The notes under the pieces were generated by a model, which was not told the origin of the DNA, made no database searches, and worked only from the letters and a program-made list of their open reading frames with translations. Below, in pieces: positions 2,718-63,188 of a stretch of DNA of 64,000 nucleotides; within the stretch, counting starts at the first letter, position 1, and each line of letters begins with the position of its first letter. The stretch spans positions 62,001-126,000 of the forward strand of contig JAJFFH010000037.1 in assembly GCA_021776735.1 (NCBI GenBank). Reading direction: 5' to 3'. A program made the translations under genes and the position numbers. The DNA comes from Planctomycetota bacterium (GTDB taxonomy: Bacteria > Planctomycetota > PLA2).

Positions 2718-2734
2718 CATCGCCGTCCGTTTGC
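2718..2734 (-). repeat. Dispersed GCAAACGGACGGCGATG repeat, intergenic
   Basis: Perfect 17-bp copy, 27 bp upstream of the start at 2691 and in the same orientation as that gene. Confidence 0.95.
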
Positions 2735-2755
2735 TTTTTCTTGGGGGTCTTCTGC

Positions 2756-3874
2756 CTACTTCTCTGCGAACGGGAAGCGCCAGCCGTTGTCGTACCGGTT
2801 GTCGAAGCCGAAGTCGTCGATGGGCGCAAGCGACGGCTTGTTGAGCGTAACGACGACCGGCTGGAAGAGTTGCCCCAGGACGAGACCGTCGTGGATGCTC
2901 TCGAGGCAGTGCTCGACGTACATGGTCTCGCCGAGACCGAGCACGCTCGCGACCGTCGCGCAACCACCGTGGCCGGCGCACAGGATCAGCATCGGATCGA
3001 GGTTCACGTTCATCATCAGGATGCCGGCGTCCTCGTACGGCCCGAGCGTTTCCTTCGGGCCAAGTTCGCCCTTGGCGCGGGCGTCGCTCATGATCATCTC
3101 GTCCGTCGTGCGCCGGAATGTCGTCTTGCCGTGGCCGCGCAGGCGGATGCCGGCTTCAGGCGGCTCACAAACTCCCGGCTCAATGAGGTAGTGGTCGCTC
3201 TTTTGTGCGGGGAAATGCCAGCGGAACCGGGCTGGAAGTTCCGCCGCCGGCGCGCCTTCCATGATGCGACGCGCGATCGGATCCGCCAGCGGATTGCGGA
3301 ACGGCGAGCCGATGACGATTACCGCACCGCCCTTGTTGTCCTTGCAGTACTTGTCGAGACGGGCCTCCGCGCCGACTCGGTCGAGGTCGAGCGACACGGA
3401 CTCACGGTGACCGACAATCACCACTTCAGCCCGTTCCCGCAAGACATCCCTGAGCCGCGCAAGCGCCTCGCTGTCGCGCTCCCCCATCACGCGGCTACAG
3501 ATGCCGCGCAGGGACGATGACACCGGCACGTCGCGGTGGCCGAGGACGGCCAACACGGGAGCGTTCGGGACCCATGAGTCCCACGGAACGAACCAATGCT
3601 CAAAGTCCACGAGCATCCCCGCGGGCATCTTCATCTTCCGCAGGCACTGCGCGAGACACCCGATGTCGGGAATCCTGCGCGCCTTGACCGCCATCGCCTT
3701 GCGCCGGTACTCGCCCCGGATCCCGTACAGGTTCAAGAACCCGTCCATCGTCAGTCCGGACGCCTCGCACAACTTCTCGACGGCCCGATGCACGGTCGTA
3801 GCAACCTGTGCCTCGTTCTCCCGATCGGGTCCGATCAGATAGACCAGATACTGGTGGAGCTTGCTGATGCCCAT
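2756..3874 (-). CDS. Protein of unknown function, divergent from the Ub/Pup operon
   Basis: 372 residues from ATG 3874, chosen because GGGAGG sits six bases upstream; an in-frame ATG at 3901 lacks such a site. I do not recognise the family. Visible features: a helical N-terminal part with a GIRGEYRRKAMAVKARRIPDIGC segment, then two alternating strand/helix stretches. The first includes VVIVGHRES. The second includes GAVIVIGSPFRNPLADPIA, and near the C-terminus comes an apolar segment with AGHGGCATVASVLGLG. The GSP and AGHG loops suggest a Rossmann-like or ligand-sensing fold rather than a membrane protein. It starts 186 bp from the Ub/Pup operon on the opposite strand, so the two may share a control region. 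A sensory or regulatory role is a guess from position only. Confidence 0.7.
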   Translation of the reverse strand: MGISKLHQYLVYLIGPDRENEAQVATTVHRAVEKLCEASGLTMDGFLNLYGIRGEYRRKAMAVKARRIPDIGCLAQCLRKMKMPAGMLVDFEHWFVPWDSWVPNAPVLAVLGHRDVPVSSSLRGICSRVMGERDSEALARLRDVLRERAEVVIVGHRESVSLDLDRVGAEARLDKYCKDNKGGAVIVIGSPFRNPLADPIARRIMEGAPAAELPARFRWHFPAQKSDHYLIEPGVCEPPEAGIRLRGHGKTTFRRTTDEMIMSDARAKGELGPKETLGPYEDAGILMMNVNLDPMLILCAGHGGCATVASVLGLGETMYVEHCLESIHDGLVLGQLFQPVVVTLNKPSLAPIDDFGFDNRYDNGWRFPFAEK

Positions 3875-4059
3875 GTCATCCTCCCGCTCTGGGGCGCTCA
3901 TGCGCCCACCTTACGCCTGTGCGGACGCGCGCACAGGGCGGCGCGGCCCGCGATGAAACCTTGGTCAAATGTAGTCGCGTTACAGACCGAGGCGCGTGCG
4001 GGGTCTGGTTCATTAGAACCGGCTTCGCACGTGCCGCCATAACAAAAGGAGCAACCGCG
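3875..4059. promoter_or_regulatory. Divergent intergenic region upstream of the Ub/Pup operon
   Basis: This 185-bp gap separates the leftward unknown gene (start 3874) from the rightward operon (first ATG 4060), so it must hold both promoters. The right end has a good ribosome-binding site (AAGGAG at 4046-4051, eight bases before ATG). I see no convincing -35/-10 pair and no clear operator. Confidence 0.4.
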
Positions 4060-4680
4060 ATGGCGCACCTTTGGGTCGAAGAGAAGCTTGAAGTAGTCCT
4101 CGAAGCAGCAAAAGGGGGGGGCGGAGGCGGCCGCAAAGATGTCGCGGATGACGTCCAGGAAACTGAACGTTGGGCGGTCGCGCCGCTCGACGGCGCCCGC
4201 TTCGCGCTGGCTGACACACCCCGGCGCATCGACGCGAACGACGACGCCACCGACGTCGCCGACATCGTGCTCATGCGGCTCGCGCCGCGCAACGAGTGGG
4301 TCTTGCTTGCGGCGGGCAGCCGCACGGTCCGCGTCAACGGCACCGCGGTTCCCGGCATGCGCCGGCTCCTTGATCGGGACGAGATCACCGTGACCAGCAG
4401 CGCCAGGAGCACCAAGACGGCGCGGAGCAACGCACGGTTCTTCTTCACCTCCGAAAGGCTCGCACAAGTCGCGGCGTTCCCTGTTTCGCCGCGAAAGATT
4501 CTTTGTCCGCGCTGCAAGACCGAGGTCGAAGAGGGCGAGCCGGCGGTGCGTTGCCCCGGTTGCGACCTTTGGCACCACCAGGGCGAGCGTTCGTGCTGGA
4601 CTTTTGCGGAACGCTGCGCGGGTTGCGACCACCCCACGGAGTTGCCGGCCACGTTTCGCTGGACGCCGGACACGTTCTAG
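4060..4680 (+). CDS. FHA-like / RING-type treble-clef protein, candidate E3-like factor
   Basis: 206 residues; ATG 4060 has AAGGAG eight bases upstream. After a Gly-only run (residues 19-24) comes a beta-rich middle part ending in VNGTAVPGMRRLLDRDEITV (about 92-111). This resembles the last strands of an FHA domain, which often carries V.G..L..GD.I.V. The C-terminus is a cysteine/histidine cluster: C149-x2-C152, C165-x2-C168, H172-H173, C179, C186-x2-C189. That spacing fits a binuclear treble clef of the RING/zinc-ribbon class. Treble-clef proteins are known next to E1/E2/JAB genes in bacterial ubiquitin-like operons, where they are proposed to act as E3 adaptors. As the first gene of this operon it is the best E3 candidate, by inference from context. 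A G-tract at 4114-4128 encodes the Gly run. Confidence 0.7.
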   Translation: MAHLWVEEKLEVVLEAAKGGGGGGRKDVADDVQETERWAVAPLDGARFALADTPRRIDANDDATDVADIVLMRLAPRNEWVLLAAGSRTVRVNGTAVPGMRRLLDRDEITVTSSARSTKTARSNARFFFTSERLAQVAAFPVSPRKILCPRCKTEVEEGEPAVRCPGCDLWHHQGERSCWTFAERCAGCDHPTELPATFRWTPDTF

Positions 4681-4704: not shown

Positions 4705-4725
4705 GAGAACCAACGGGAGAGTCTC

Positions 4726-6378: not shown

Positions 6379-7190
6379 TCCACCCGACGATCGAATCCAC
6401 CCTGGGCAAGATCGCGTCGGACGTGAAGCCGCGCGACGCCGGCTGGGACTTCACCCTCAAGAACGGCTGCGTGGTCCCGGCGCACGCCGAACTCGAAAGC
6501 GACTGGCTCACGCTGCGCGCCGCTCCGCAAGAGGTTCGCCGCCGCCCGAGCGCATGGCGACTCCTCGAACTCAACGGCACCCTCGCCGGCGGCGCACGCG
6601 TCTCGAGCACCCCCGCGGGCCGGTTGGCTCTCGGCGCTTCCATTCCGTCGGAACACGCGCACGACACGCTCAAGGCAACGTGCGACGGGCTGCTCGCAGG
6701 CGCCGGCTGGCTGGCAGGCTCCACCAAAACCGATCGAAACAAATCGAACGGACAGCAGACGGACGGCGATGCCTCCGACATGTCGGAAGCGCTGCGCAGC
6801 GGCGGGTGGACCGTCACCGACGACGGATCGATCGACCTCGACGGCGACGCTATGGCCACGATCGCGCACGGGCGCGTCACGGCGCGGCTGTTTGGCGAAG
6901 ACGAAGTACCGGCAAAGGCGCGCGCCGCCGTCGGACTGCTCGGGCTCGCGCTCAACCACGTCGTGCGCGGAGTCCGGGTCGCGCGCGTGGACGGCGCGGT
7001 AGTCCTCGAGGCCGACGTGCATCGCCGTCCCGCCGCTGTTTTCACGATGTGTGCCCTCCAAGCCGTCTACGTCGCGGTGCGGCTGGGGGCCTTTGAACTG
7101 CGCGCGCTTCGCGACAAGGACTGCGCCCGCGCGTTTTTGGACGTGCGCGGCGAAAAACTCTCAGGCTTTGAACAAGGACTTCGCAAATGA
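6375..7190 (+). CDS. Unknown two-module protein embedded in the Ub/Pup operon
   Basis: 271 residues; ATG 6375 overlaps the E2 stop and its own stop overlaps the Ubl start, so it is translationally coupled on both sides and clearly part of the system. I do not recognise the family. It appears to hold two related alpha/beta modules (about 1-115 and 140-265). Each has a helix, a strand hairpin and a hydrophobic helix: compare GRLALGASIPSE..HDTLKATCDGLL with GRVTARLFGEDEVPAKARAAVGLLGLAL. The layout recalls YbjN or type-III-secretion-chaperone-like folds, but that is tentative. The linker between the modules (residues 118-138) is hydrophilic and contains a copy of the dispersed 17-bp repeat read as QTDGD. 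A substrate adaptor or chaperone role is possible but unproven. Confidence 0.75.
   Translation: MIHPTIESTLGKIASDVKPRDAGWDFTLKNGCVVPAHAELESDWLTLRAAPQEVRRRPSAWRLLELNGTLAGGARVSSTPAGRLALGASIPSEHAHDTLKATCDGLLAGAGWLAGSTKTDRNKSNGQQTDGDASDMSEALRSGGWTVTDDGSIDLDGDAMATIAHGRVTARLFGEDEVPAKARAAVGLLGLALNHVVRGVRVARVDGAVVLEADVHRRPAAVFTMCALQAVYVAVRLGAFELRALRDKDCARAFLDVRGEKLSGFEQGLRK
6755..6771 (+). repeat. Dispersed repeat copy, in coding sequence
   Basis: GCAGACGGACGGCGATG; encodes QTDGD in the linker of the 6375-7190 protein. Confidence 0.95.
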
Positions 7191-7486: not shown

Positions 7487-8496
7487 CCCCGCACCGTTTC
7501 CTGGTCGAGCTGTACCGCGACGGGCAGTTGCTCACGCAGCGCCCGGTCCCGACGGAGAGTCTCGATCCCGCGCTGGAGTGGCTCCAGTTCGAAGGCGTCC
7601 GGCAGGGCGTCCTCCCGGCACGGTTGGGGGGGCGCTCGCCCGCGGCGGCGGAGCCGGTCTGGCATCCCGACGACGGCGAACCGTTCGTCGAGGGGATCGG
7701 GTTCGCCGGCGTCGAGGCGCGGGTGCCGACTGCGTACTTCCGCGAAGTGGCCGAGACGGCGTCGAGCGAGCTCGTCGAGCGCGGCGACCTCAAGGAGGGC
7801 GATCCGTTTACCTACCGCGTGCTGGCGTTTCCGGGGAACGAAACCGGCCAACAGCAAACGGACGGCGATGTCGGCGACGTTGTCGAGATTCCGCAGGAGC
7901 TTGATGCGCCCGAGGTGGCGCTCGCGGAATTGCTGGATGGTGCGGAACAGCACGGGCCCGCGGTCGAGCGCGAGATGCCGGTCGTGATTCCACATGAGGT
8001 TCTCGACGAGGTCGATGCCTGCAAGCTCGCGGCGGGCGGGGTCGAAACCGGCGGCGTCCTGGTCGGTCGTCTTCACCGTGACCGTGACACACACGAGCTG
8101 TGTCTTCGGGTCGCGGCGCAGATTCCCGCGCGGCACGCCGAGGCGCAGGCGATGCGATTCACGTTCACGCCGGAGACCTGGGGCTCGGTGCGCGACATCA
8201 TCGACCTGCGCGGTCGCGACGAGATCATGGTCGGCTGGTGGCACACGCATCCCGCCCGCGAATGGTGCAAGGAATGCGCGCCCGAGCGGTGGCTCACCTG
8301 CCCGCTCGCGCGCTCGTTTTTCAGCGCCGAGGACGGCCGCCTGCACCGGATGGTCTTTCCGCGTGCGTACAGCGTGGCGCTGGTCGCGGGCGACCACGTG
8401 CGGGACGACCGGAGTTGGGAGTCGGTTCTCGCGCTCTACGGCTGGCACCAGGGGCTGGTGCAGCGCCGCGGCTACTACGTCATCCAGAACGCCTAG
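7483..8496 (+). CDS. JAB/JAMM metallopeptidase, predicted Ubl-processing and deconjugating enzyme
   Basis: 337 residues; GTG 7483 overlaps the Ubl stop (GTGA). The C-terminal half (about 165-337) is a JAB domain: Glu188 in VETGGVLVGRL, the metal-binding H254-T-H256 in GWWHTHP, and the third metal ligand Asp284 in FFSAED. Between HTH and that Asp there are 27 residues rather than the usual ten. The extra loop carries Cys262, Cys265 and Cys273 and may hold a structural metal. The N-terminal part (1-160) is a separate, mostly beta-rich region, joined by a linker holding a copy of the dispersed repeat read as QQTDGDV (residues 125-130). Expected function: cleaves the Ubl after Gly-Gly and removes it from targets with Zn2+ catalysis. 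Confidence 0.88.
   Translation: MTPHRFLVELYRDGQLLTQRPVPTESLDPALEWLQFEGVRQGVLPARLGGRSPAAAEPVWHPDDGEPFVEGIGFAGVEARVPTAYFREVAETASSELVERGDLKEGDPFTYRVLAFPGNETGQQQTDGDVGDVVEIPQELDAPEVALAELLDGAEQHGPAVEREMPVVIPHEVLDEVDACKLAAGGVETGGVLVGRLHRDRDTHELCLRVAAQIPARHAEAQAMRFTFTPETWGSVRDIIDLRGRDEIMVGWWHTHPAREWCKECAPERWLTCPLARSFFSAEDGRLHRMVFPRAYSVALVAGDHVRDDRSWESVLALYGWHQGLVQRRGYYVIQNA
7854..7870 (+). repeat. Dispersed repeat copy, in coding sequence
   Basis: GCAAACGGACGGCGATG; encodes QTDGD in the linker of the JAB protein. Confidence 0.95.
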
Positions 8497-10187: not shown

Positions 10188-11860
10188 CCCACAGCAAGAC
10201 AAGCAATCCCATTCCGAGGCGGGGCGGGGGCGGAATCCCGAAGCTCTGCGGGGGCGACATCGAACTCGCCAACTTCATCTTCGGCGCCCCCACCACGGGC
10301 AACGGCATCGGCAGCGGGACCGGCGCAGAAGCCGCGCGCGCTTTGCTGCGCCAGATCGAGGGCGTGGCGGCGGGCAGTTTCTACACGCGCCCGGCCACAT
10401 CGTCCGGACACTCCGGCTGGTCGTTCGGAACCGGCTACGCCCCGAGCTACGGATACGGCAACTCCTATCGTGCGGGCTACGGCTATGGCTACGACTCGGG
10501 CTACGGCACCGGATGGCCGCGGGCGTCCGAGGAGAACCCACAAGACATCGACCGCCGTTTCCTGACGACCAACGGCGGCTGCGCGTACATCGACCTCTCG
10601 CACCTGGAGGTCTGCCTGCCGGAAGTCCGCAGCGCATACGACCACGTCGCCTGCTGGCACGCCTTGTTGCGCATGGTGCGCGACGCCCAGGTACGCGCGA
10701 ACCAGGAACTCCCGGAGGGCCAGACCGTCAAGGTGCTCGCGAACAACAGCGACGGCAAGGGCCACTCCTACGGCAGCCACTTGAACTTTCTCCTGACGCG
10801 CACCTGCTGGGACAACCTGTTCAAGCGCCGTCTGCACCATGCACTCCACATCGCCACGTACCTCGCCAGCTCGATCCTGTTCGCGGGCGCCGGCAAGGTC
10901 GGCGCGGAATCCGGCGAGAGCGTGCCGTTTCAAATCTCGCAGCGCGCCGACTTCTTCGAGTCGCTCACTGCCACCCAAACAACCTACGACCGCCCGCTGC
11001 TCAACAGCCGCGACGAAAGCCTCGCCGACTCCGACATGGCGCGCTTTCACCTCATCTTGTTCGACAGCACGCTGCAGCACGGCGCCAGCCTGCTCAAGGT
11101 CGGCGTCACCCAGATCGTTCTGGCGATGCTCGAACAGGGCCAGACCGATCCGCTTCTGTTTCTGGACGATCCCGTGGAAGCGCTGCACACGTGGAGCAGG
11201 GATCCGGACCTGGAGGCCACCGCGACGACAGCAGACGGACGGCGATGTACCGCGCTGGACGTGCAGTGGATGTTTTTTGAACGCGCCACGCGCTTTGTCG
11301 CCTCAGGGTGCGCGGAACCGGTCGTACCGCGGGTCCACGAGATCATGGCGCTGTGGGAAGACACCCTCACGCGGCTCGGCGACGGCCGCGTGGAAACACT
11401 CACCGGACGGCTCGACTGGGTCTTGAAGCGTTCGTTGCTGCGCCGTGCGATGGACGCGCACGGACTCGCCCCGGACGCGCCCGCTCTGCAGGTGCTCGAC
11501 CAGACGTATCACTCCCTCGACCCGGACGAGGGGCTTTATTGGGCTTGTGAACGTGCGGGTGGCCTTGAGCGATACGTCCCGGAAGAACGGATTTGCCACT
11601 TCACGAAAGAGCCCCCGGAAGACACACGCGCGTGGACCCGCGCGCACCTGCTGCGCCGCGGCGACGTCGAAGCGGTCGATTGGGACCGGCTGCGCTTTGC
11701 AGACGACCGCATCGTCTGGATGCGCGACCCGCTCCGCTTCACGCGCCAGGAAACCGGCGCACTGTTCGAACAGGACCTGCCGCCGGGGCAGCTCCTGGAC
11801 CAGCTCGAGAGCACCCTCTCCCCCCCGACCCCCCACACCCCCACTTCAGAAAGGATCTGA
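10184..11860 (+). CDS. Dop-like member of the Pup ligase/deamidase family
   Basis: 558 residues; ATG 10184 overlaps the ATPase stop. It has the glutamine-synthetase-like fold of Dop/PafA: GGDIELANF (residues 23-31) stands in place of the usual G-x-E-T-E-Y, so the first acidic residue is Asp. The catalytic Asp is Asp137 in AYIDLSHLE. The nucleotide/Pup region is NNSDGKGHSYGSHLNFLL, the arginine region NSRDESLAD, and C-terminal domain landmarks include LDWVLKRSLL and LDQTYHSLDPDEGLYW. Between the first two strands sits a long Gly/Tyr/Ser-rich insert (about 76-111) at the place where actinobacterial Dop has its Dop-loop. That, plus the order ATPase-Dop-Pup-PafA, favours deamidase/depupylase over ligase. 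One dispersed-repeat copy lies at residues 350-355. Confidence 0.82.
   Translation: MTHSKTSNPIPRRGGGGIPKLCGGDIELANFIFGAPTTGNGIGSGTGAEAARALLRQIEGVAAGSFYTRPATSSGHSGWSFGTGYAPSYGYGNSYRAGYGYGYDSGYGTGWPRASEENPQDIDRRFLTTNGGCAYIDLSHLEVCLPEVRSAYDHVACWHALLRMVRDAQVRANQELPEGQTVKVLANNSDGKGHSYGSHLNFLLTRTCWDNLFKRRLHHALHIATYLASSILFAGAGKVGAESGESVPFQISQRADFFESLTATQTTYDRPLLNSRDESLADSDMARFHLILFDSTLQHGASLLKVGVTQIVLAMLEQGQTDPLLFLDDPVEALHTWSRDPDLEATATTADGRRCTALDVQWMFFERATRFVASGCAEPVVPRVHEIMALWEDTLTRLGDGRVETLTGRLDWVLKRSLLRRAMDAHGLAPDAPALQVLDQTYHSLDPDEGLYWACERAGGLERYVPEERICHFTKEPPEDTRAWTRAHLLRRGDVEAVDWDRLRFADDRIVWMRDPLRFTRQETGALFEQDLPPGQLLDQLESTLSPPTPHTPTSERI
11231..11247 (+). repeat. Dispersed repeat copy, in coding sequence
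   Basis: GCAGACGGACGGCGATG in the Dop-like gene, in another frame (ADGRRC). Confidence 0.9.
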
Positions 11861-11862: not shown

Positions 11863-12084
11863 ATGAACACCCGTGAACGACGACCCGACGACAACCGTGA
11901 CGACAACCCGGGCGAACCGGGAATGACTCCCCCCGCCGATTTCATTCAGCGAGTGGGCTCGCTGGCGAACGCCCGTCGGGAAGGGCAGGGCCTCGCCTCC
12001 GCGGGCGATGACGCGATTCGCAAAAGCCTCTCGTTGAACAGCGAGACGTGGCTCGGCGCGAACCGGCAGGAAGGCGGGCAGTAG
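11863..12084 (+). CDS. pup: Pup, prokaryotic ubiquitin-like protein ending in Gly-Gly-Gln
   Basis: 73 residues from ATG 11863, two bases after the Dop-like stop, with AAGGA at 11851-11855. The first half is highly charged and disordered-looking (MNTRERRPDDNRDDN), as in Pup and the related UBact proteins. The second half has a weak helix, and the protein ends in EGGQ. The GGQ end is the Pup form that needs deamidation of Gln to Glu by Dop before PafA can join it to lysines. At 73 residues it is slightly longer than mycobacterial Pup (64). The middle is divergent from actinobacterial Pup, so identity rests on the GGQ end, composition, size and position between the Dop-like and PafA-like genes. 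The longer open frame that begins upstream inside the Dop-like gene is not the real start. Confidence 0.92.
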   Translation: MNTRERRPDDNRDDNPGEPGMTPPADFIQRVGSLANARREGQGLASAGDDAIRKSLSLNSETWLGANRQEGGQ

Positions 12085-12086
12085 AC

Positions 12087-13742
12087 GTGACGCGCCGCCG
12101 CCTGTTCGGACTCGAGACCGAGTACGCGTTCAGCGCCTTCGATTCCACGGGCGGGGCGCTTTCGCGCGAGCACTTTCTCGGCAAGTTTTTTCACCTCGTC
12201 CTCAAGCGTGTCCCCCACCTCCCGGGGATGCGCTGCGGCGGGGTCTTTTTGGAAACCGGTGCGCGGTTCTACATGGATACCGGTCACCACCCGGAGTTCG
12301 CGTCGCCGGAGTGCACGACCCCCGACGAGCTCGTGTGCGCCGTGCGCGCAGGGGATCGACTCTTGGCGGAGACGGTCGCCGAGATGCAGGCCGCGGTCAC
12401 GAGTCCCGCCGAGCTCGCGCTGCTCACCGGCAACGTCGACTACGCCAGCGGCGCTACGTGGGGCAGCCACGAGAGCTATCACCACCGCGCCGACCCGACT
12501 AGTCTGCCCCGCGATTTGATTCCGCACTTTGTGTCGCGCGTCATCTACACCGGCGCGGGTGGCTTCGACAACAAGCATCCCGGCCTGCGGTTCCTGGTGT
12601 CCCCACGCGTGCCGCATCTCGTGTGCGCGGTGTCGAACGAGTCGACGGCCCACCGTTCGATCTACCACACGCGCGACGAGAAACTCGCGGGCGACGGGAA
12701 CCACCGAATGCATGTCATCTGTGGCGAGAGCCTGCGCTCGGACCGCGCCCTTTGGTTGCGCGTCGGCACCACGGCGCTGATTCTTGCGCTGGCCGAAGCC
12801 GGGCGCGCCCCGGGTAGCAAGGTCAGGCTGAAACATCCGCTCAAGGTCATGCAGGCGTTCGCCGCCGATCCGACTTGCCGGGTTCGGAGTGAGAGACGGA
12901 CGGCGATGCAGATTCAGCGCCACTACCTCAAGTGCGTCGAAGCCGAACTCGCGACCGACCTCCTGCCGGAGTGGGCTACAGCACTGTGCGCGGAGTGGCG
13001 CCGCGTTCTCGACCTCACGCAGAAAACGCCGGACGCGCTCGAGAACGTGCTCGATTGGCGCATCAAGTGGGCGCTGTACAAAGCGCACGCCGCGCGGCGT
13101 GGTTTTGACTGGGAGATCGTGGAGCGCTGGAACGAGCTGCTCCAGACACAGCGGTGGGTGCAGATTGAGGCGCAGCGACCGCGCCGGCCGGCGCGGAAAC
13201 ATCCCGAACCGTTCATTTCAGCCAAAGAGGAAGCAGCGGCCGACGCCGCCCTCGCCGGCGCGCTGGAGGAGGAATTCACACGACGAGGCCTGCGCCAAGA
13301 GGATCTCGACGGATTCTTGAAGCTGCGCGCGGAATTGTTCGAACTCGACACGCGGTTTGGCCAGCTCGGCCCGCGCGGCACGTTCGCCAGCCTCGACGAG
13401 GCCGGGGTCCTCGACCACCGCGTCCCGACCATCAGCGCAGCCGAATCACTCGCAGCGTTGAACACCCCGCCAGCCACGACCCGAGCCGCCCTGCGCGGCC
13501 ACGCGATTAAGGAGCTGCGACAACGAAATCCGGGCGAAACAGCCCCGACGGATTTGGGCGGCCGAAATGGAAGTCGCGGACCGCGGGCAAGCTGGACGGG
13601 GGTCTGGGACCTCGACGACCGCCGCATGATCGACCTGTCGAATCCGTTCGCCCAAGAGGCCCAATGGCAGCCGATGCCCCAACCGGAACCCGATCCGATC
13701 CAGGAAGCGCCCGCCACGGAACAGAACCAGCCGAGAGATTGA
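12087..13742 (+). CDS. PafA-like Pup ligase
   Basis: 551 residues. GTG 12087, two bases after the Pup stop, places the family signature G-L-E-T-E-Y (residues 8-13) right at the N-terminus, as in PafA; the open frame further upstream is overlap with pup. The catalytic Asp is Asp64 in YMDTGHHPE, followed by FASPEC and the NVDYASGATWGSHESYHHR nucleotide-site region. There is no Dop-loop insert, which supports a ligase assignment. It should use ATP to link the C-terminal Glu of deamidated Pup to substrate lysines. About 100 extra C-terminal residues, rich in Pro, Gln and acidic residues, extend beyond the usual ligase length (450-480) and have no recognised fold. A partial dispersed-repeat copy lies near residue 270. 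Confidence 0.85.
   Translation: MTRRRLFGLETEYAFSAFDSTGGALSREHFLGKFFHLVLKRVPHLPGMRCGGVFLETGARFYMDTGHHPEFASPECTTPDELVCAVRAGDRLLAETVAEMQAAVTSPAELALLTGNVDYASGATWGSHESYHHRADPTSLPRDLIPHFVSRVIYTGAGGFDNKHPGLRFLVSPRVPHLVCAVSNESTAHRSIYHTRDEKLAGDGNHRMHVICGESLRSDRALWLRVGTTALILALAEAGRAPGSKVRLKHPLKVMQAFAADPTCRVRSERRTAMQIQRHYLKCVEAELATDLLPEWATALCAEWRRVLDLTQKTPDALENVLDWRIKWALYKAHAARRGFDWEIVERWNELLQTQRWVQIEAQRPRRPARKHPEPFISAKEEAAADAALAGALEEEFTRRGLRQEDLDGFLKLRAELFELDTRFGQLGPRGTFASLDEAGVLDHRVPTISAAESLAALNTPPATTRAALRGHAIKELRQRNPGETAPTDLGGRNGSRGPRASWTGVWDLDDRRMIDLSNPFAQEAQWQPMPQPEPDPIQEAPATEQNQPRD
12896..12908 (+). repeat. Dispersed repeat core, in coding sequence
   Basis: ACGGACGGCGATG in the PafA-like gene, encoding RRTAM. 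Confidence 0.8.
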
Positions 13743-20717: not shown

Positions 20718-20734
20718 CATCGCCGTCCGTTTGC
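20718..20734 (-). repeat. Dispersed repeat copy, intergenic
   Basis: Perfect copy between the fic gene and the divergent beta-helix lipoprotein gene. Confidence 0.95.
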
Positions 20735-22319: not shown

Positions 22320-22336
22320 GCAAACGGACGGCGATG
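22320..22336 (+). repeat. Dispersed repeat copy, intergenic
   Basis: Perfect copy 22 bp after the stop of the beta-helix lipoprotein gene. Confidence 0.95.
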
Positions 22337-25731: not shown

Positions 25732-28619
25732 GGCTCCCGCCTGAACACGAGCCGAAACCCGTGGTTGTGCGAGGCGACGTCGGGAGCCGCGTGCAGCCCG
25801 CCCCAGAGGTTGAACTCGTCCGGGTTCGTCATGCCCCATGACGAGCCGCCGAGACGCCGATAGCCGCGCTTTTTGTCGAACCAGTCGTCGAGCCACTCCG
25901 CCGCGCTGCCGCACATGTCGTACGCGCCGTAGGGCGACTCGTCGATCGGGTACCGCATCACCGGTTCGGGGCTGGCGCTCGGGCGCGCAAAACAGGACTT
26001 GAGCCACTTCGGACGAAACACGTTGCCCCATGTGTACGCGCGCTTCATGTCGCCATCGGCAGCGCGGACCCACTCGGCGCGGGTGGGCAGCGCGTAGGTG
26101 CGTCCGTCACGCCGCCCGCGCCACGCCGCGTACTCAACGGCGTCGTCGTACGACACCCCGATCACCGGCCAGTCCGGGTGCCAGTCGTCCGGCACCGCGA
26201 ACGATCCATCGGCACGCGCGGCCCAACGGTCGCGGCCGTGGCGCGGCACGCGCGTGGATCTCTCGGCCGCGGGCAGCGCATTGAGAAACTCGACGTACTC
26301 GCGACACGTCGTTTCGCGCTCCTGAATCCAGTATTCGCCGTAGGCGACGTAGACAAAACCGGCGGGAGTCGCTCCGACGCGATTGAGCCAGCGAACATGG
26401 CCGAACTCGTGCGCCGGCTGCGGCTCGCAACTCCACAACAGATCTTCAAACCCCTTGCGTCGAAACAGGACCTGTATCGGACCCGGCTCGACACTGACCG
26501 TACAAGGCGTGCGACCGACGAGAGCGGACGCGTGCAAGAAACGCGGCGCCGCCGTTACCCGCACGGTCAGACCCGGAGGCAGCTGCACGACGGCGAGTCT
26601 TGCTCCGCGGTAGACCCGCGCCGCAACCCCGCCGCGCTCGGCAAGCTGCGCCGGAGTCATGCAGCGCGACGAAAGAGCGCGGACTTCGCCCGCACCCGCA
26701 AGAACGAAACGAGCATCGCCGTCCGTTTGCTTCCCCAAGTCGGTGATGCTTCGTACAGCCTCCCCGTCGATGGACAGGAGCCGGTCGCCGTCTTTCGTCA
26801 GGACGCAATCGCGGATCGGATGGCCGGCCACGTCGAGAATCAAGTCGCCCGGCGCGATGTCGCCCGCGCCACGCACGACGCGCAGTGCCCACGACCCGAA
26901 CGGTAGCGATGACGGATCGACGCCGGCGGGGACCGGCACGAGGCGCCGCTCCCCGCCTTCGCGCAGCATTGCCAGCTCCCGGAAGCGAAACAGAAAGACG
27001 TCGGCGCCGGGTGGGTCCGTGATCAGGTTGAGCTGCGCGCGGACACGTAGGTGCGCGGTCGCGACTCCGTCGGGGTCGTGCCGGTCGATGAGCCCGCGAT
27101 ACAGCGTCACGCTCGCGAAGTCTCGCGCCGCGGCGGCCTCTTCCATCTTTTCGAGGTAGAGTCGGGCGCGCACCGCGTCCGCCCCCGGGACCGACGGGTC
27201 GAGTTTTTCCGCCAGGCGCAACAGGTCGAGCACGCGTAGGAACGAGGCTTGGCGCGCGCGGGTCAGAGCCTCGCGCCGATCAACGACCGCCTCGAACTCG
27301 CGGTCCTCCTTGTTGGTGCGGTAGCTCGACTCGGTCGCGCCACGGAGCCACTCGTGCCGCGTCTCGGCTTTGAGGAGCTCGCCGCGCGACGCGCGATACT
27401 CGACCAGAATTCGTTTCGCCGTCGCGACGCGATCGCGCGCGTCGTCCTGTTTTTTTCGCGTCTCGCTCCAGCGTGCGTGGACCAGGTAGGCCGCGAACAC
27501 GAGGGCCGCCACAGCGACTGTCGCGATCGTGGCCGCGCGGGCCGGATTGCGGTTCGCGTAACGGCGGACACGCGCCCGGGCGCTCGGCGGTCGCGCGCGG
27601 ATCGGCTGCGCGTGAAGAACCGCTTCGAGATCCGCGGCGAGTTCGGTCGCACTCTGGTATCGGTCCTCCGGCCGTTTCTCCATGGCCTTGAGCGTGACCA
27701 CGTCGATCGCCGGCTCGACCGCCGGATTGAGCTTGCGCGGCGGCGGAGGATCCTTCGTCAGGATTTGCCGGAAGAGCGCCTCCATCGTGCCGCCCGCGAA
27801 CGGCAGGCGGTCGGTCAGGCACTCGTACAACGAGACGCCCAACGCGTAGACGTCAGTCCGCGCATCGACCTCACCCAGGCCGAGCTGCTCCGGCGCCGCG
27901 TACGAGGGCGACCCCGCGAAGCTGCGCGTGAGGGTTGTTGCCTCGACCTCGGTCAGGTGCGCCATGCCGAAGTCGAGCAGGACCGCGCGGTCGTCCGGCG
28001 TGATGAGGATGTTGGCGGGCTTCACGTCGCGGTGGACGACACCCTCCTTGTGCGCGGCATCGAGCGCGCCGGCAACCTGCCGGATCCAACCGAGGATGCG
28101 CGGCACCGGCGGTCGCTCCCCGGCCGCTCCGGAGGCCGCCACGATCTCGCTCAGGGGCTGCCCGGGCACGAACTCCATCGCGAGGTAGCGAACGCCATGC
28201 GCGTTCCCCAGCTCGTACACGGTGACCACGTTGGGGTGGCGCAGCTTGGCGATGGCGAGCGCCTCGCGTTCGAAACGCTTGAGGACCGTTTCGGACGCCT
28301 GCAACTCCGGCCGAATGACTTTGAGCGCGACGAGGCGACGCGGCGCGTCCTGCTCGGCGACGTAGACCGTGCCCATGCCGCCGCCGCCGAGCCGTTTCAA
28401 GAGCCGATAGGCGCCGAGCCGTTCGAACGGGAGCTTGTCCCCCGACGCCTCACCGAGCACACGATGGAGCGCACGAATCTGCTGGCGCTCGCCGGTCTCG
28501 ATGCCGGGCTGGCGTGCGAAGAACGCGTCCGGATCCTCGGCGCCGCCTGCGCGGCAGGCGTCGAGGTAGAGGTCGTAGAACGGCTCTACGTCCGGAGGCG
28601 TCGTGTCACGGCGGCCCAT
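25728..28619 (-). CDS. Membrane Ser/Thr protein kinase fused to an FGE-sulfatase (SUMF1-like) domain
   Basis: 963 residues. The kinase domain (about 70-335) has glycine loop LGGGGMGTVY, Lys100 (ALKVI), HRDVKPAN (196-203), DFG (216-218) and APEQ. One membrane segment lies at about 360-382, then a helical coiled region. A PDZ-like part (about 585-650, GDLILDVAGHPI) includes a copy of the dispersed repeat read as QTDGD (630-635). After a PEGA-like stretch (PRFLHASALVGRTPCTV) the last 210 residues are a formylglycine-generating-enzyme-like fold: ETTCREYVEFLN, WPVIGVSYDDAVEYAAWRG, YALPTRAEW, GAYDMCGSAAEWLDDW and GGSSW. It probably senses an extracytoplasmic signal with the FGE-like part. The sigma-factor gene overlaps its stop codon. 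Confidence 0.92.
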   Translation of the reverse strand: MGRRDTTPPDVEPFYDLYLDACRAGGAEDPDAFFARQPGIETGERQQIRALHRVLGEASGDKLPFERLGAYRLLKRLGGGGMGTVYVAEQDAPRRLVALKVIRPELQASETVLKRFEREALAIAKLRHPNVVTVYELGNAHGVRYLAMEFVPGQPLSEIVAASGAAGERPPVPRILGWIRQVAGALDAAHKEGVVHRDVKPANILITPDDRAVLLDFGMAHLTEVEATTLTRSFAGSPSYAAPEQLGLGEVDARTDVYALGVSLYECLTDRLPFAGGTMEALFRQILTKDPPPPRKLNPAVEPAIDVVTLKAMEKRPEDRYQSATELAADLEAVLHAQPIRARPPSARARVRRYANRNPARAATIATVAVAALVFAAYLVHARWSETRKKQDDARDRVATAKRILVEYRASRGELLKAETRHEWLRGATESSYRTNKEDREFEAVVDRREALTRARQASFLRVLDLLRLAEKLDPSVPGADAVRARLYLEKMEEAAAARDFASVTLYRGLIDRHDPDGVATAHLRVRAQLNLITDPPGADVFLFRFRELAMLREGGERRLVPVPAGVDPSSLPFGSWALRVVRGAGDIAPGDLILDVAGHPIRDCVLTKDGDRLLSIDGEAVRSITDLGKQTDGDARFVLAGAGEVRALSSRCMTPAQLAERGGVAARVYRGARLAVVQLPPGLTVRVTAAPRFLHASALVGRTPCTVSVEPGPIQVLFRRKGFEDLLWSCEPQPAHEFGHVRWLNRVGATPAGFVYVAYGEYWIQERETTCREYVEFLNALPAAERSTRVPRHGRDRWAARADGSFAVPDDWHPDWPVIGVSYDDAVEYAAWRGRRDGRTYALPTRAEWVRAADGDMKRAYTWGNVFRPKWLKSCFARPSASPEPVMRYPIDESPYGAYDMCGSAAEWLDDWFDKKRGYRRLGGSSWGMTNPDEFNLWGGLHAAPDVASHNHGFRLVFRREP
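26714..26730 (-). repeat. Dispersed repeat copy, in coding sequence
   Basis: Perfect copy in the kinase-FGE gene, encoding QTDGD. Confidence 0.95.
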
Positions 28620-31798: not shown

Positions 31799-32653
31799 CT
31801 ATTCGTCGTCGGGTGCGGGGCCGAGTGCTTTGGCGCGGTCCGTGATGCGACGAAAGAGCTCGGTGTTCGGGCTGTTCGGCACGTTCTGGATCTCGGTGGG
31901 ATCGACACCCCACTCCTCGAACTCCTTGAACTGCGCCTTGGACCAGTCGCGCTTGAACGTCGTGCGCATCGATGTCTTGATCGACTCGATCTGCGCCACG
32001 TAGGTCTGATTCGTACCAGGAACCTTCTCGCTCGCGACGCGCGCGAACCAACGGCCAAACCCGTGATCCTTGCCGGGCTGCGCAATTCCCCTGGCCATGA
32101 TCTCGACAAGTTCGTCCATCAGGCTCGAGCCGCCCGCGGTCGGAATCGCCAGAACCGCGTGGAGCTTTCGCTGCCCGTCGACCACCACGCGCTCCGCCGC
32201 CTCGCGCTGTTCGTTCGTAAGCTCAAGCGCCGAAGCGAATACCTTCATCCCGGGCTTCTTGTTCGCCTTGACGCGCAGCTCCTCCAGAACGCGCTTCGTC
32301 TTGCGATCGACCGCGTCATCGACGATCGCCGCCAACGCCTTGTTGTCCCCGGCGGTGCCGGACAGCCCGTCGGGATCATCGCCGTCCGTCTGCTCTTCGT
32401 CCGGGTTCATTCCGTCCGCCGGGTTGACGCCCGCGGAGCCCCGCCGTCCCGTGGACCCCGGTTGCGCCAGGACATCGAGTTTGCGCATGAGTTCCACGAC
32501 CTGCAATTGCAACGCCGTCACGCGGGGATCCGGCGCGGTTCCCCGTTCCCGCACCGGCGCGCGTTCACGGCGCGGGCGCTCCCGCATGACGCCGTAGGTG
32601 GCCAGGCCAAGCGCGAGAGCGGAGAATACAAGCGCGATGCCACCGGTCTTCAT
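31799..32653 (-). CDS. Hypothetical membrane-anchored or exported protein
   Basis: 284 residues from ATG 32653; this start puts a hydrophobic segment (GGIALVFSALALGLATYGV, residues 4-22) at the N-terminus. After a basic stretch comes a helical segment (VTALQLQVVELMRKLDVLA), a low-complexity linker (about 70-100) that includes a dispersed-repeat copy read as EEQTDGDD (85-92), and a mainly helical domain (LELTNEQREAAERVVVDGQRKLHAVL ... WSKAQFKEFEEWGVDP). That last part resembles the periplasmic helical proteins of the Spy/CpxP or DUF-type that sense stress, but the match is weak. Function unknown. Confidence 0.72.
   Translation of the reverse strand: MKTGGIALVFSALALGLATYGVMRERPRRERAPVRERGTAPDPRVTALQLQVVELMRKLDVLAQPGSTGRRGSAGVNPADGMNPDEEQTDGDDPDGLSGTAGDNKALAAIVDDAVDRKTKRVLEELRVKANKKPGMKVFASALELTNEQREAAERVVVDGQRKLHAVLAIPTAGGSSLMDELVEIMARGIAQPGKDHGFGRWFARVASEKVPGTNQTYVAQIESIKTSMRTTFKRDWSKAQFKEFEEWGVDPTEIQNVPNSPNTELFRRITDRAKALGPAPDDE
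32378..32394 (-). repeat. Dispersed repeat copy, in coding sequence
   Basis: GCAGACGGACGGCGATG in the linker of the 31799-32653 protein, encoding QTDGD. Confidence 0.95.
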
Positions 32654-34664: not shown

Positions 34665-34681
34665 CATCGCCGTCCGTTTGC
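34665..34681 (-). repeat. Dispersed repeat copy, intergenic
   Basis: Perfect copy 27 bp upstream of the ExbD-like gene start at 34637, same orientation as the gene. Confidence 0.95.
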
Positions 34682-37494: not shown

Positions 37495-37508
37495 AACGGA
37501 CGGCGATG
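37495..37508 (+). repeat. Dispersed repeat copy, intergenic (CAGGAACGG variant)
   Basis: AACGGACGGCGATG preceded by CAGG. Confidence 0.9.
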
Positions 37509-37548
37509 CCTTCGACAAGATCGCCCAGCACGCACCTCAGCCAGGATC

Positions 37549-37674
37549 GCAGCAGGTTTACCTGGCACTCGTACCCCGGAACCCCGTACCCCGGAACCCG
37601 AACCCGGCCCGACAATGCGGCAGGTTTACACGGCACCCGACACGGCGGCATTGCAGCAGCTTTACCTGGCACCG
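37549..37674 (-). repeat. Three copies of the GGTGCCAGG dispersed motif
   Basis: Copies at 37549-37568, 37617-37637 and 37653-37674, read on the minus strand as GTGCCAGGTAAACCTGC with small changes. The core CAGGTAAACCTG is a palindrome with a two-base centre. The family also occurs at 30926-30986. Confidence 0.75.
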
Positions 37675-37744
37675 TACGGCGGCGGGCACCGTACGGCGGG
37701 CGGGCGGGCGGTGCGAATGCGCTGGGTCTGCTACTTTTGGGGGC

Positions 37745-40862: not shown

Positions 40863-40876
40863 AACGGACGGCGATG
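40863..40876 (+). repeat. Dispersed repeat copy, intergenic (CAGGAACGG variant)
   Basis: AACGGACGGCGATG preceded by CAGG, 58 bp before the gene start at 40935. Confidence 0.9.
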
Positions 40877-47587: not shown

Positions 47588-47601
47588 AACGGACGGCGAT
47601 G
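47588..47601 (+). repeat. Dispersed repeat copy, intergenic (CAGGAACGG variant)
   Basis: AACGGACGGCGATG preceded by CAGG, between convergent gene ends. Confidence 0.9.
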
Positions 47602-50943: not shown

Positions 50944-50960
50944 GCAAACGGACGGCGATG
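50944..50960 (+). repeat. Dispersed repeat copy, intergenic
   Basis: Perfect copy in the divergent gap between the GNAT and phosphotransferase genes. Confidence 0.95.
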
Positions 50961-50994
50961 CATTGCCCGCGCGGGTCGCTACACTTCGGGCACA

Positions 50995-52230: not shown

Positions 52231-53523
52231 TCAACGTGCGCAGGTGCGGAAGCTGACGTAGACGTCGCGGCGGTCGGGCAGATACGACTGGCGATAGCTG
52301 TTGCGGATCAGGCACGACGAGGTCGCACACGAGCCGCCCTTGGCGACCTTGTGATCGCCGAACTGCAGCGTGGACATGAACGGGTACATGTCGACCTTGA
52401 AACCGTCGTACGGCAGGAACTGGGTCGAGGTCCATTCCCAGGCGGTACCCAGCATCTGCACGCAGCCCTCCGGCGTTGCGCCGCCGGACAACGCGTGGAC
52501 CGGCGCGCGGCCGAGCAGCGTGCCGTCCATGTCAACGCACTCGCGGTCCGCCTCGTCCATGTCGTCGCCCCAGGGATATCGCCGTCCGTCCGCTCCCCTC
52601 GCGGTGGCTTCCCATTCCGCTTCGGTCGGTAACCGCCGGCCCGCCCAATTGCAGAAGGCCTCGGCTTCCCAGTAGCTCACGTGCATGACGGGAGCATCGG
52701 GGGCAAGGTCGGCCCACTGGTCGAACCAGCGCGACTGCCAACGGTCGTCGTCCGCGCGGCGCCAATAGAGCGGGTGCTTCGTCCTCGACTCGCGGAGCCA
52801 GCACGCGCCGGTGTAGCTCCAGGCGTCGGTGTTCTCATAGCCGCCCGCCTCGACGAACGCGAGGAACTCGCGGTTGGAAACGAGCGTGCGCGAGATCGCG
52901 AAGGGCTCCAGCTCGGTCTGATAGCCGGGCATTTCCGCGTCGAACGCAAACCCGCGGCCCGCGAAGTGCTCGGAATCCGCGGGCATGCCCAACGGATAGC
53001 GGCCGCCCGGGATCACAGCGTCGCCCGTGGCAAGCTCCGGGCCGGCGGGCGCAACAAGCTCCGCGGCGGACGGCGGCGGCGGATACCCGAGGGTTTGCCG
53101 GCACCAGACCAGCGACTCCAGGTGCATGTTCTGGTGGCACACGGAATAGCGCGCGAGGTAGTGCTCTCGCGGCGACAGGTCGTGCGTTTCGATCCAGTCG
53201 CGCGTCTCGTTGAGAACCGTCGCGTAGTAGTCCCACGCCGCCTGCCGGTCCGGCACCTCGCCCGAGCGCCAGCGCACGCGGTGCGGGATTTGAAACGAAT
53301 CCCAGACCGCGTCGGAGCCGGGCATGCGCGGCTCGCCGGAACCGACCACGCGCAGGAAAAAGTACTCGGTAAAAAACGCCGCGTGGCCGAGCTCCCACAC
53401 GGGCGGGTTGATCCCGGGCTCGTACGGCACCGCGAGTTGGGCCTCGTCGAGGCTCGTGATCAGCTCGCGCGTCCGCTGATCGGTCCGGTTGAGTTCGGCG
53501 AGAAGTTCGGCTTTCGTGTTCAT
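52231..53523 (-). CDS. senA: SenA, selenoneine synthase (EgtB-like nonheme iron enzyme)
   Basis: 430 residues. Like EgtB it combines an N-terminal DinB-type four-helix domain with a C-terminal FGE-sulfatase fold. The iron-binding His triad region is conserved: His47 in VWELGHAAFFTEY and the H130-x3-H134-x-E136 motif (HQNMHLESLVW). The FGE part has SYWEAEAFCNWAGRRLPTEAEWEATARG and CVQMLGTAWEWTSTQFLPYDGF, ending RNSYRQSYLPDRRDVYVSFRTCAR. Its ATG overlaps the stop of the SenB gene (53520-53523), and SenB supplies the seleno-glucose. SenA then couples it to hercynine, so together they make selenoneine. The order senB-senA in one operon matches described sen clusters. Confidence 0.85.
   Translation of the reverse strand: MNTKAELLAELNRTDQRTRELITSLDEAQLAVPYEPGINPPVWELGHAAFFTEYFFLRVVGSGEPRMPGSDAVWDSFQIPHRVRWRSGEVPDRQAAWDYYATVLNETRDWIETHDLSPREHYLARYSVCHQNMHLESLVWCRQTLGYPPPPSAAELVAPAGPELATGDAVIPGGRYPLGMPADSEHFAGRGFAFDAEMPGYQTELEPFAISRTLVSNREFLAFVEAGGYENTDAWSYTGACWLRESRTKHPLYWRRADDDRWQSRWFDQWADLAPDAPVMHVSYWEAEAFCNWAGRRLPTEAEWEATARGADGRRYPWGDDMDEADRECVDMDGTLLGRAPVHALSGGATPEGCVQMLGTAWEWTSTQFLPYDGFKVDMYPFMSTLQFGDHKVAKGGSCATSSCLIRNSYRQSYLPDRRDVYVSFRTCAR
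52577..52593 (-). repeat. Near-match to the dispersed repeat in senA
   Basis: GCGGACGGACGGCGATA, two differences from the consensus. It encodes DGRRY, which is normal for this enzyme family, so it may be chance or an adapted copy. Confidence 0.4.
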
Positions 53524-54604: not shown

Positions 54605-54621
54605 GCAAACGGACGGCGATG
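54605..54621 (+). repeat. Dispersed repeat copy, first of an inverted pair
   Basis: Perfect copy; pairs with 54637-54650. Confidence 0.95.
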
Positions 54622-54636: not shown

Positions 54637-54650
54637 CATCGCCGTCCGTC
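54637..54650 (-). repeat. Dispersed repeat copy, second of an inverted pair
   Basis: GACGGACGGCGATG on the minus strand; the GCAA end is separated by two extra bases. Confidence 0.9.
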
Positions 54651-57611: not shown

Positions 57612-57613
57612 CA

Positions 57614-58306: not shown

Positions 58307-58319
58307 AACGGACGGCGAT
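58307..58319 (+). repeat. Dispersed repeat copy, intergenic, imperfect
   Basis: AACGGACGGCGAT followed by T in place of the final G. Confidence 0.8.
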
Positions 58320-58553
58320 TAACGCTGGCGGACGAACTATGTGCCCGCGTACGCTGCGGGCCGCCGGACCCGAACGGTCCCCCTTCCGGAAATCGGGGTC
58401 GGAGAACTTGGCACGAGCGTTTCTCCCGCGCGTTGATTCATGCCTCTCTCCTGCCTTCGTGCTCTCGAGCGCGCTTGCCCACGATCCCGGTCACCAGCAA
58501 GCGACACGTGAACGTCGCTCGTGAACCTGAACCTGAACGGGTGCGGGCTCGGA

Positions 58554-58570
58554 CATCGCCGTCCGTCTGC
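58554..58570 (-). repeat. Dispersed repeat copy, intergenic
   Basis: GCAGACGGACGGCGATG on the minus strand, flanked on the plus strand by a T7 run. Confidence 0.95.
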
Positions 58571-60758: not shown

Positions 60759-60834
60759 CTGAGTTCTCCTCGTTTGTCCGTCCCATCGCTGGGACAACCC
60801 GTTGCGTGTCGAATCGCAGGACGCGGTTCCGGGC

Positions 60835-61407: not shown

Positions 61408-61570
61408 CGTGTTCACCACGACGGGCCAATCGCGAAACACGGACCACAACGAAAAGCCGGCGTTTCCCCCCGAAAACCGTCAGGTGGAGCAGACGGTCGG
61501 CGTGCACGCGCTGTCAGGCATTCCGGACGGAAGCCTGTTCAGCGGCGCCCGCGTTCTTTAGATTGTGGCC

Positions 61571-63115
61571 ATGACGGCCGGGCGCGATGAGCACGATGTA
61601 CTGCTCCGCGAGCATGGCTTGCTTCTCCGCATCCTCGAACTCGGCCACTGCCCCGATGTTGAACCGTTCTTGAAGGACACGCTGCGGCTGCTCGTCGAGG
61701 TCGCGAACGCCAAGCGCGCCTACCTTGAAGTGTTCGATCCTGCCGGCGGCGAACCCGACCTGGCGTGGACCACCTCGGAGGGCTGTTCAGAAGACGACCT
61801 CGCTTCGATCCAGGCGGGTGTGTCACGCAGCATCATCGAGCGATCGTTGCGCGACGGCGAGATGATGCGAACAATCTGCGCCCGGGACGACGCCCGGTTC
61901 TCGGACCGTTCCAGCGTGAAGCAGGGCAATGTCGAGGCGGTCTTGTGCACGGGCATCGGCGAGCCGCCCGTCGGCGTAATCTACCTGGAGGGCGAACGTG
62001 GCCAGGGTGGCTTCGACGACGAGGCGGCGCGCATGGTCGCGCTGGTTGCCCGACACGCCGCGCCCTTCGTTCCCGGCCTCGCGGCGCGTCGCCGGTTCGA
62101 GTCGATGACGGACCACACGGCCGCGTGGCGCGAACGTCTGAAGATCGACGGGATCGTGGGCCGCAGCCGGGCGCTCGCCGGGGTGCTGAAGACGATCGAC
62201 ACCATCGCGCGTTTTCGGACGAGCGTGCTGATCACCGGCCCGTCGGGCAGCGGCAAGACGGCACTCGCCCGCGCCCTCGCCATCAACAGCCACCGCGCAC
62301 TCGCTCCGTTCGTACACGTCAACTGCGGCCAGATTCCGGAGGGCCTCATCGCGACCGAGCTGTTTGGGGCGGAAGCCGGCGCGTACACCGGTGCCGCGGC
62401 GCACGCCCGCACCGGCAAGGTCGAGGAAGCGGACGGCGGCACGCTCTTTCTCGACGAGGTCACGACGCTGCCTGTGTCGGCGCAGGCCGCACTCCTGCAG
62501 TTCCTCGACAACGGCGAGTTCGCACGCGTCGGCGACCCCAAGACGTACCGCGCGGACGTACGCCTGATCGCCGCCACGAACGCGGACATCCGGGAGGAAA
62601 TCGCGGCCGGCAGATTCCGCGAGGATCTCTACTACCGCCTGGCCGAGGTCACCGTCGCCATTCCGCCCCTCGCCGAGCGTATTGACGACATCGGCCCGCT
62701 GTGCCACCACTTCTGCGAACAGTTCCCGAGCGAGGAGGCCCAGCTCGCCCCGGTCCGCATGTCGCTGGCCGCGATCGCCGCGGCGGAGACCCGCGACTGG
62801 CCGGGCAACGTCCGCGAACTCGCCAGTGCCATCCGCGGGGCGGTGCTGCGCGCCCACCACGAAGGCGTACGCGCCGTCGAACCCCGCCACCTGTTTCCCG
62901 ACGACGACACCGACGACGCGCACGACCCGAGCGACACCGACAACCCCGGCCTCGACTTCCGCGCCTCCACGCGCCGCCACCAACGACGCCTGCTCGAAGG
63001 CGCCCTCGACAGGGCCCGCGGCAACAAGACCAGGGCCTGCGCGCTCCTCGGCTTGTCGCGCGCGCACTTCTACAGCCTGCTCGATCAGCACGGGTTGCGT
63101 GCAAACACGAAATGA
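61571..63115 (+). CDS. Sigma-54-type AAA+ transcriptional activator with GAF domain
   Basis: 514 residues from ATG 61571. An N-terminal GAF-like sensor domain (about 20-175: LRILELGHCPDVEPFLKDTLRLLVEVANAKRAYLEVFDP, VGVIYLEGER) is followed by the AAA+ domain: Walker A GPSGSGKT (about 221-228), the sigma-54-contact loop AEAGAYTGA (Tyr for the usual Phe in GAFTGA), Walker B GGTLFLDEVTTL, and the sensor II region with DWPGNVREL. The C-terminal helix-turn-helix is of the Fis type (RRLLEGALDRARGNKTRACALLGLSRAHFYSLLDQHGL). It should drive sigma-54 promoters in response to a small molecule. A dispersed-repeat hairpin follows 32 bp after the stop. Confidence 0.92.
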   Translation: MTAGRDEHDVLLREHGLLLRILELGHCPDVEPFLKDTLRLLVEVANAKRAYLEVFDPAGGEPDLAWTTSEGCSEDDLASIQAGVSRSIIERSLRDGEMMRTICARDDARFSDRSSVKQGNVEAVLCTGIGEPPVGVIYLEGERGQGGFDDEAARMVALVARHAAPFVPGLAARRRFESMTDHTAAWRERLKIDGIVGRSRALAGVLKTIDTIARFRTSVLITGPSGSGKTALARALAINSHRALAPFVHVNCGQIPEGLIATELFGAEAGAYTGAAAHARTGKVEEADGGTLFLDEVTTLPVSAQAALLQFLDNGEFARVGDPKTYRADVRLIAATNADIREEIAAGRFREDLYYRLAEVTVAIPPLAERIDDIGPLCHHFCEQFPSEEAQLAPVRMSLAAIAAAETRDWPGNVRELASAIRGAVLRAHHEGVRAVEPRHLFPDDDTDDAHDPSDTDNPGLDFRASTRRHQRRLLEGALDRARGNKTRACALLGLSRAHFYSLLDQHGLRANTK

Positions 63116-63147
63116 TGCGGGAGTCCGGACGAAGACGCGAGGCAGGG

Positions 63148-63160
63148 ACGGACGGCGATG
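63148..63160 (+). repeat. Dispersed repeat copy, first of an inverted pair
   Basis: ACGGACGGCGATG, preceded by CAGGG. Confidence 0.9.
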
Positions 63161-63171
63161 TTTTCCGGAGA

Positions 63172-63188
63172 CATCGCCGTCCGTTTGC
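63172..63188 (-). repeat. Dispersed repeat copy, second of an inverted pair
   Basis: Perfect 17-bp copy. Confidence 0.95.

Follow-up and report, generated by a model that had tools for sequence, protein, structure and literature searches.

A candidate DNA-uptake sequence dispersed through the genome of a Planctomycetota bacterium

Uptake sequences are known from only two families, both proteobacterial, Neisseriaceae and Pasteurellaceae, according to excerpts of a 2025 paper (PMC12616744), and the excerpted text of a survey of frequent terminator words across thousands of genomes (PMC13020248) reports them in the same two. The 2025 excerpts place an inner CTG in the DUS of the former and an inner GCGG in the USS of the latter, and describe the Pasteurellaceae USS receptor itself as only predicted. 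From excerpts of two further papers, the plus-minus order of paired copies in DUS and USS genomes gives a terminator A and T tails on its two sides (PMC1852404), extended flanks and plus-minus terminator pairs are described for both kinds of sequence (PMC1852404, PMC2346458), and in Neisseria genes reportedly start inside the DUS (PMC2346458). No report of uptake sequences in Planctomycetes or Myxococcota was found in the open literature, nor one of natural transformation in the planctomycete group in open papers; as a text string, the word described below appears in one open paper, which concerns a human enzyme.

The word is ACGGACGGCGATG. Neither it nor its complement contains CTG/CAG or GCGG/CCGC, and it is not a Neisseriaceae DUS or a Pasteurellaceae USS proper. 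The window in which it was noticed (the whole 64-kb stretch of DNA analysed) holds 19 exact copies, and 21 when up to one mismatch is allowed, compared with a mean of 0.45 and a maximum of 4 in 100 dinucleotide shuffles. A sequence-only reading of the window had listed about 20 copies, 12 on the plus and 8 on the minus strand, and had judged such a number of 13-mers improbable by chance, as the shuffles bear out. All 20 were recovered, 19 as exact copies and the one at 58308 with one mismatch; the exact copies divide into 11 plus and 8 minus, or 12 and 8 once 58308 is counted. The starts given earlier are off by 0-4 bases because the AGCA flank was sometimes counted in. The core copies are as follows:

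2718..2730, minus strand: exact, non-coding
6759..6771, plus strand: exact, within a called gene
7858..7870, plus strand: exact, within a called gene
11235..11247, plus strand: exact, within the Pup-ligase/Dop-family gene 10184-11860
12896..12908, plus strand: exact, within the second Pup-ligase-family gene, 12048-13742
20718..20730, minus strand: exact, non-coding
22324..22336, plus strand: exact, non-coding, shortly past a gene end at 22297
26714..26726, minus strand: exact, within the kinase/FGE-sulfatase gene 25728-28619
32377..32389, minus strand: exact, within a called gene
34665..34677, minus strand: exact, non-coding
37496..37508, plus strand: exact, non-coding by the home-made calls; the motif ATG is the start of ORF 37506-38726
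40864..40876, plus strand: exact, non-coding
47589..47601, plus strand: exact, non-coding
50948..50960, plus strand: exact, non-coding by the home-made calls; the motif ATG is the start of ORF 50958-51485
52577..52589, minus strand: one mismatch (last G to A), absent from the earlier list
54609..54621, plus strand: exact, left arm of an inverted pair with 54637; coincides in part with a minus-strand gene's called start
54637..54649, minus strand: exact, right arm of the pair with 54609; pair fold -35.0 kcal/mol, z -4.79
58308..58320, plus strand: one mismatch (last G to T)
58554..58566, minus strand: exact, non-coding
63148..63160, plus strand: exact, left arm of an inverted pair, downstream of the plus-strand gene 61565-63115
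63172..63184, minus strand: exact, right arm of the pair with 63148; pair fold -33.4 kcal/mol, z -6.28

The pair 63148/63172 is followed by a T-rich tail, TTTGCTGTTTTC, and is terminator-like. Inverted pairs had been said to follow genes: both pairs are real, and 63148/63172 does follow one, but 54609/54637 does so only loosely. Similarly, an intergenic share of about 70 percent is close to what the window gives (12 of 19 exact copies non-coding by the home-made calls), but the larger sample from the same genome gives a lower one (101 of 202). The two Pup-ligase/Dop-family genes (10184-11860 and 12048-13742) are neighbours with one core copy apiece; none of 8 relatives tested has the family, which suggests that the two genes were acquired and have gained the motif since. 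A separate G/C-tract word, GGGGGGCGGGGGC, occurs five times in the window (40696, 42696, 43392, 45945 and 56146) and 51 times in the genome sample, and a similar one, CCCCGGAGCCCC, is frequent in the relative G001; possibly, these are G-quadruplex-forming spacers.

Genome-wide, the 5.97-Mb draft assembly of 71 contigs contains 1,202 exact copies of ACGGACGGCGATG, i.e. about one per 5 kb on average, with no general strand bias (589 forward, 613 reverse). Markov models predict 1.2-4.9 copies per genome (orders 1-5; 1.4 at order 3 and 4.9 at order 5). The reversed pattern, taken as a control, has no copy in the genome; when one mismatch is tolerated, the word has 1,916 copies and the control 8. 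The excess counted on both strands is thus enormous, and abundance beyond the window is nowhere near chance. Placement and consensus statistics were drawn from 59 stretches amounting to 1,102,139 bases (18.5 percent of the genome) with 202 exact copies, a partly non-random sample in that 11 stretches were chosen for prepilin or competence genes and contigs C8-C10 for their absence from the motif listing. Genes were called by a home-made hexamer method and therefore the labels coding and non-coding are approximate.

The signal is larger than its core, the fuller form being AGC-NN-ACGGACGGCGATG-YYTY. Eleven of the 13 core positions are nearly invariant: among the 116 one-mismatch copies that the sample holds besides the 202 exact ones, 32 have C2A and 56 differ at the last base, leaving 27 spread over the other 11 positions. 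Upstream, AGC stands at -5 to -3 in 98 of 163 copies and CAGG[AG] in 28 of 163, and one or the other precedes 159 of the 202. In about 22 of the 32 C2A copies, AGC or AGT lies one base closer, and therefore an AG-type half-site appears to lie 3 or 4 bases before GGACGGCGATG. The downstream consensus is YYTY. Information spans about -7 to +16, with a weak purine preference farther upstream in the non-coding copies.

Non-coding DNA makes up 17 percent of the sample and holds 101 of the 202 exact copies, a density ratio of 4.85 by the home-made gene calls; the roughly fivefold enrichment outside called genes agrees with what had been noticed in the window. Coding copies number 101, against the 0.17 predicted by codon use, and occupy all six frames (51, 21, 9, 9, 6 and 5). 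The commonest frame, read as TDGD, accounts for 51 of the 101, and codon use favours both it and the next commonest; three frames for which codon use predicts about 2 percent hold 20 copies. This spread points to selection acting on the DNA and not on the protein. In six cases in the sample the ATG of the motif is a called start codon, while the distances that separate copies from gene starts and ends vary broadly. Spacings of 80-500 bp occur less often than chance would give (4 seen, 15.9 expected; no simulation out of 2,000 reached so low a number). Pairs closer than 80 bp number 6 where 3.3 are expected, all six in plus-minus, i.e. head-to-head inverted, order, so that the inverted pairing first seen in the window recurs; the remaining spacing classes fit chance. 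Pairs that form hairpins are nevertheless only about 6 among 202 copies, most of which are unpaired.

The possibility that related species share the sequence was not borne out. None of 118 relatives has more than 5 copies of the exact core (genomes of the same family have 0 or 1), and 293 further genomes from the phylum have no more than 3 each of the form GGACGGCGATGYYTY, against 753 in the own genome. A 20-base form, of which 812 kb of the own genome contain 13 copies, was matched once, in Dyella, among about 85,000 species genomes, a set that may omit the own genome and very near ones. The comparison set contains no genus mate, and the order of the genome is represented in it by 17 genomes in 2 families, unlike those of Neisseriaceae or Pasteurellaceae. 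The absence of the motif from relatives does not contradict the reading as an uptake sequence. A search for other uptake-like words gave none in 230,760, 74,820, 280,508 and 60,000 bases of the relatives G001, G002, G003 and G006, and neither word nor dialect in 33 stretches of 20 kb from G001, G003, G006, G007 and 20 further genomes; applied to the own genome, the 20-kb test detected the motif in 27 of 28 stretches. Among the test stretches, L210 gave A/T-rich tracts only, and L095 one word in 5 bins where 0.20 were expected. The word CAACATCTGACGATGTT was seen 4-5 times in 80 kb of the same-family genome G003 (C24, L101-L104); as an uptake sequence it was rejected, being too rare in 280 kb of that genome. 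An 18-base form matched viral contigs 11 times, once each. Nine of these matches (L114, L115, L118-L124) have a longer sequence in common, ATGAGCAAACGGACGGCGATGTAGTGAATCTC, often near the contig start; it is a conserved phage site that has nothing to do with the motif of the genome. PSCyt2 domains, a hallmark of Planctomycetota, number 58 in one genome of the phylum and 1 in the own genome, so that the phylum looks planctomycete from its other members.

Within the genome the motif is not everywhere. Nine of 18 readable contigs chosen irrespective of it have no copy, where 1.5 such contigs were expected; together with C8-C10, the zero-copy set comprises 12 of the 59 stretches (154 kb). Protein scans covered 10 proteins of C8-C10 and 20 of the others, several of them giving no match, and revealed genes of mobile or defence type on 6 of the 12 contigs:

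C8 and C19: integrases; C19 also ParB (protein scan)
C9: type I restriction; C10: TIR-ankyrin and kinase (protein scan)
C13: RHS; C33: pPIWI-associated nuclease (protein scan)

Rarity in recently acquired or mobile DNA, as looked for in an uptake sequence, is thus seen as an excess of zero-copy contigs. Contig C27 (1-20000) has no core copy in 20 kb and a composition like that of the main genome; it encodes a kinase matching PD-T4-6 defence models. Some zero-copy contigs may be contaminants, the reported contamination of the assembly being 0.35 percent.

Competence and pilus genes, which an uptake sequence would call for, were found: ComEC (798 aa), DprA, a ComEA-like ORF of 152 aa with a hydrophobic N-terminus and a helix-hairpin-helix domain, PilT above the cut-off, PilB and a secretin just below it, and 18 prepilin matches. 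Motif-free relatives carry such genes as well, ComEC being present in 16 of 18 genomes, the own one included, and DprA in 5 of 6; competence genes do not discriminate the motif-bearing genome from its motif-free relatives. Each of the 17 prepilins extracted is matched in the motif-free same-family genome G003 by a protein 47-70 percent identical to it, and therefore no pilin stands out as an obvious private receptor. No ComP was recognised in the genome. Two minor pilins have a strongly basic globular part (pI 11.4 and 10.4, against 4.1-6.1 for the other 15 prepilins) and lie in clusters that we take to be PilV/PilX/PilW-like; encoded on C67 (at about 115.8-116.4 kb) and on C53 (at about 23.3-24.0 kb), they are candidate receptors, to be treated as leads only.

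What else could such a word be? One possibility is a chromosome-maintenance site, whether Chi-like, KOPS-like or bound by a nucleoid protein. Its presence throughout the genome, its fairly even spacing, its location inside as well as between genes and its absence from some mobile-looking contigs would suit such a role. However, the 589/613 split gives no sign of strand polarity, and orientation shows no link with local GC skew (r = 0.10 in 10-kb pieces, polarity being judged via skew alone in a draft without a mapped replication origin). Terminator-type inverted pairs and the denser intergenic placement suit a DUS better, and known chromosome-maintenance sites are shorter or far fewer than ACGGACGGCGATG. 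We consider such a site unlikely. The contigs that bear restriction and defence genes without any copy could also bring to mind a self-recognition tag, by which a defence or modification system spares tagged DNA, but PADLOC scans of 10 proteins found no candidate protein, and methylase sites are shorter than a strict 13-base core with extended flanks, which makes a defence tag very improbable. Even less can be said for an element of protein coding or transcription, i.e. a promoter site, a terminator or a peptide motif that many proteins share. The predominance of the TDGD frame (51 of 101), favoured by codon use, and the terminator-like folds of some pairs would agree with it; the use of six frames and both orientations, the non-coding half of the copies, the broad distances to gene starts and ends and the unpaired state of most copies do not, and this explanation is already largely refuted.

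The sequence-only reading had itself named a mobile short repeat as an alternative that would be betrayed by a RAYT-type transposase and conserved extended flanks. Such a repeat (REP/BIME or MITE) would have been spread by a RAYT-like Y1 transposase, and the genome does have 7 Y1/RAYT-like matches, at one of which an exact core lies on either side. Yet the 17 kb surrounding all seven matches contain no exact core besides these two, where 3.1 are expected; one further core there has one mismatch. Shared flanks seemed at first sight to exist, as 13 alignments of at least 50 bp between unmasked 213-base flanks (beyond self-overlapping pairs), but this was rejected: after masking of the core, 2 pairs (4 of 195 sites) share at least 50 bp, fewer than in any of 10 sets of random segments, which gave 3-29 pairs. 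Neither a transposase link nor conserved extended flanks emerged, and membership of a REP/BIME family with RAYT is contradicted by the lack of a conserved longer hairpin unit and of a cognate Y1 transposase; a single copy is not a hairpin. On C53 (L147, at about 81 kb) a Y1 transposase gene has, by eye, its own, different repeat blocks on either side. A few copies do adjoin another repeat, a dispersed REP-like hairpin ending in TAGCGGGGCG or TAGCGGAGCG and distinct from the motif, which has 10 matches in the sample (among its places are L036 at about 11743, L127 at about 13339, L191 at about 1243, L046, L128 and L131), 5 of them within 90 bp of a core. Taken together, we hold a mobile repeat to be highly improbable.

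We therefore favour, with a probability of roughly 0.8, the reading of the repeated word as a DNA-uptake sequence, a self tag that would give kin DNA preference through a type IV competence pilus. All distribution tests run are consistent with it, and the motif appears to behave as a DUS or USS does; the excess beyond chance and the pattern resemble the self tags of Neisseria and Haemophilus, so that this is probably a new, independently evolved case. The idea of a new uptake sequence put forward in the sequence-only reading thus gains support from the excess, the intergenic density, the inverted pairs and the competence and pilus genes. It also seems likely that this would be the first uptake-sequence system outside Neisseriaceae and Pasteurellaceae, arisen independently in a Planctomycetota lineage, and that its bipartite signal of 22-23 bases (AG-type half-site, 3-4-base spacer, GGACGGCGATG, pyrimidine tail) would be recognised by a minor pilin that is basic and not related to ComP. 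A putative receptor on the cell surface, for which a minor pilin located at the type IV pilus tip is the likeliest candidate, would bind AGC-N(3-4)-GGACGGCGATG-YYTY; retraction driven by PilT would draw the DNA through the secretin, and the ComEA-like protein and ComEC, the genes for all of which are present, would bring one strand inward, to be recombined by DprA (gene present) and RecA. Judging from the distribution, biased uptake and recombination may then both spread copies across the genome and restore them, irrespective of frame and with a preference for intergenic DNA, and transcription termination may have co-opted some of the inverted pairs. If this is true, another phylum would supply a third case, unrelated to the other two, which would mean that self-tagging of genomes for uptake evolves repeatedly. 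Why uptake sequences accumulate (uptake bias or selection for kin DNA) could then be tested independently, and a planctomycete group would by implication be naturally transformable. With its private distribution, one genome among 294, the motif would allow the origin of such a system to be studied.

How close the resemblance to described systems goes can be judged point by point, as far as the excerpted accounts describe them. Like the Neisseriaceae DUS, for which ComP is the receptor, ACGGACGGCGATG is a short asymmetric word in more than 1,000 copies, equally shared between the strands and dense between genes; plus-minus inverted pairs appear to serve as terminators with tails taken from the extended motif, and genes begin in it. 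It differs from the DUS in its unrelated sequence, its longer strict core (13 bases plus flanks), the GC-rich genome of another phylum, the small share of copies, a few percent, that form exact inverted pairs and the lack of a recognised ComP; unlike the dialect families of the DUS, no dialects are seen in relatives of the motif-bearing genome. With REP elements and their RAYT it has in common that copies are interspersed, partly intergenic and at times in inverted pairs, but a single copy forms no hairpin, and neither a conserved longer unit nor a transposase link is seen. With the Pasteurellaceae USS it shares a core with weaker extended flanks, many genic copies and a genome-wide spread; its sequence is unrelated, and where the USS has A/T tracts on one side, the planctomycete word has AGC or CAGG upstream and YYTY downstream.
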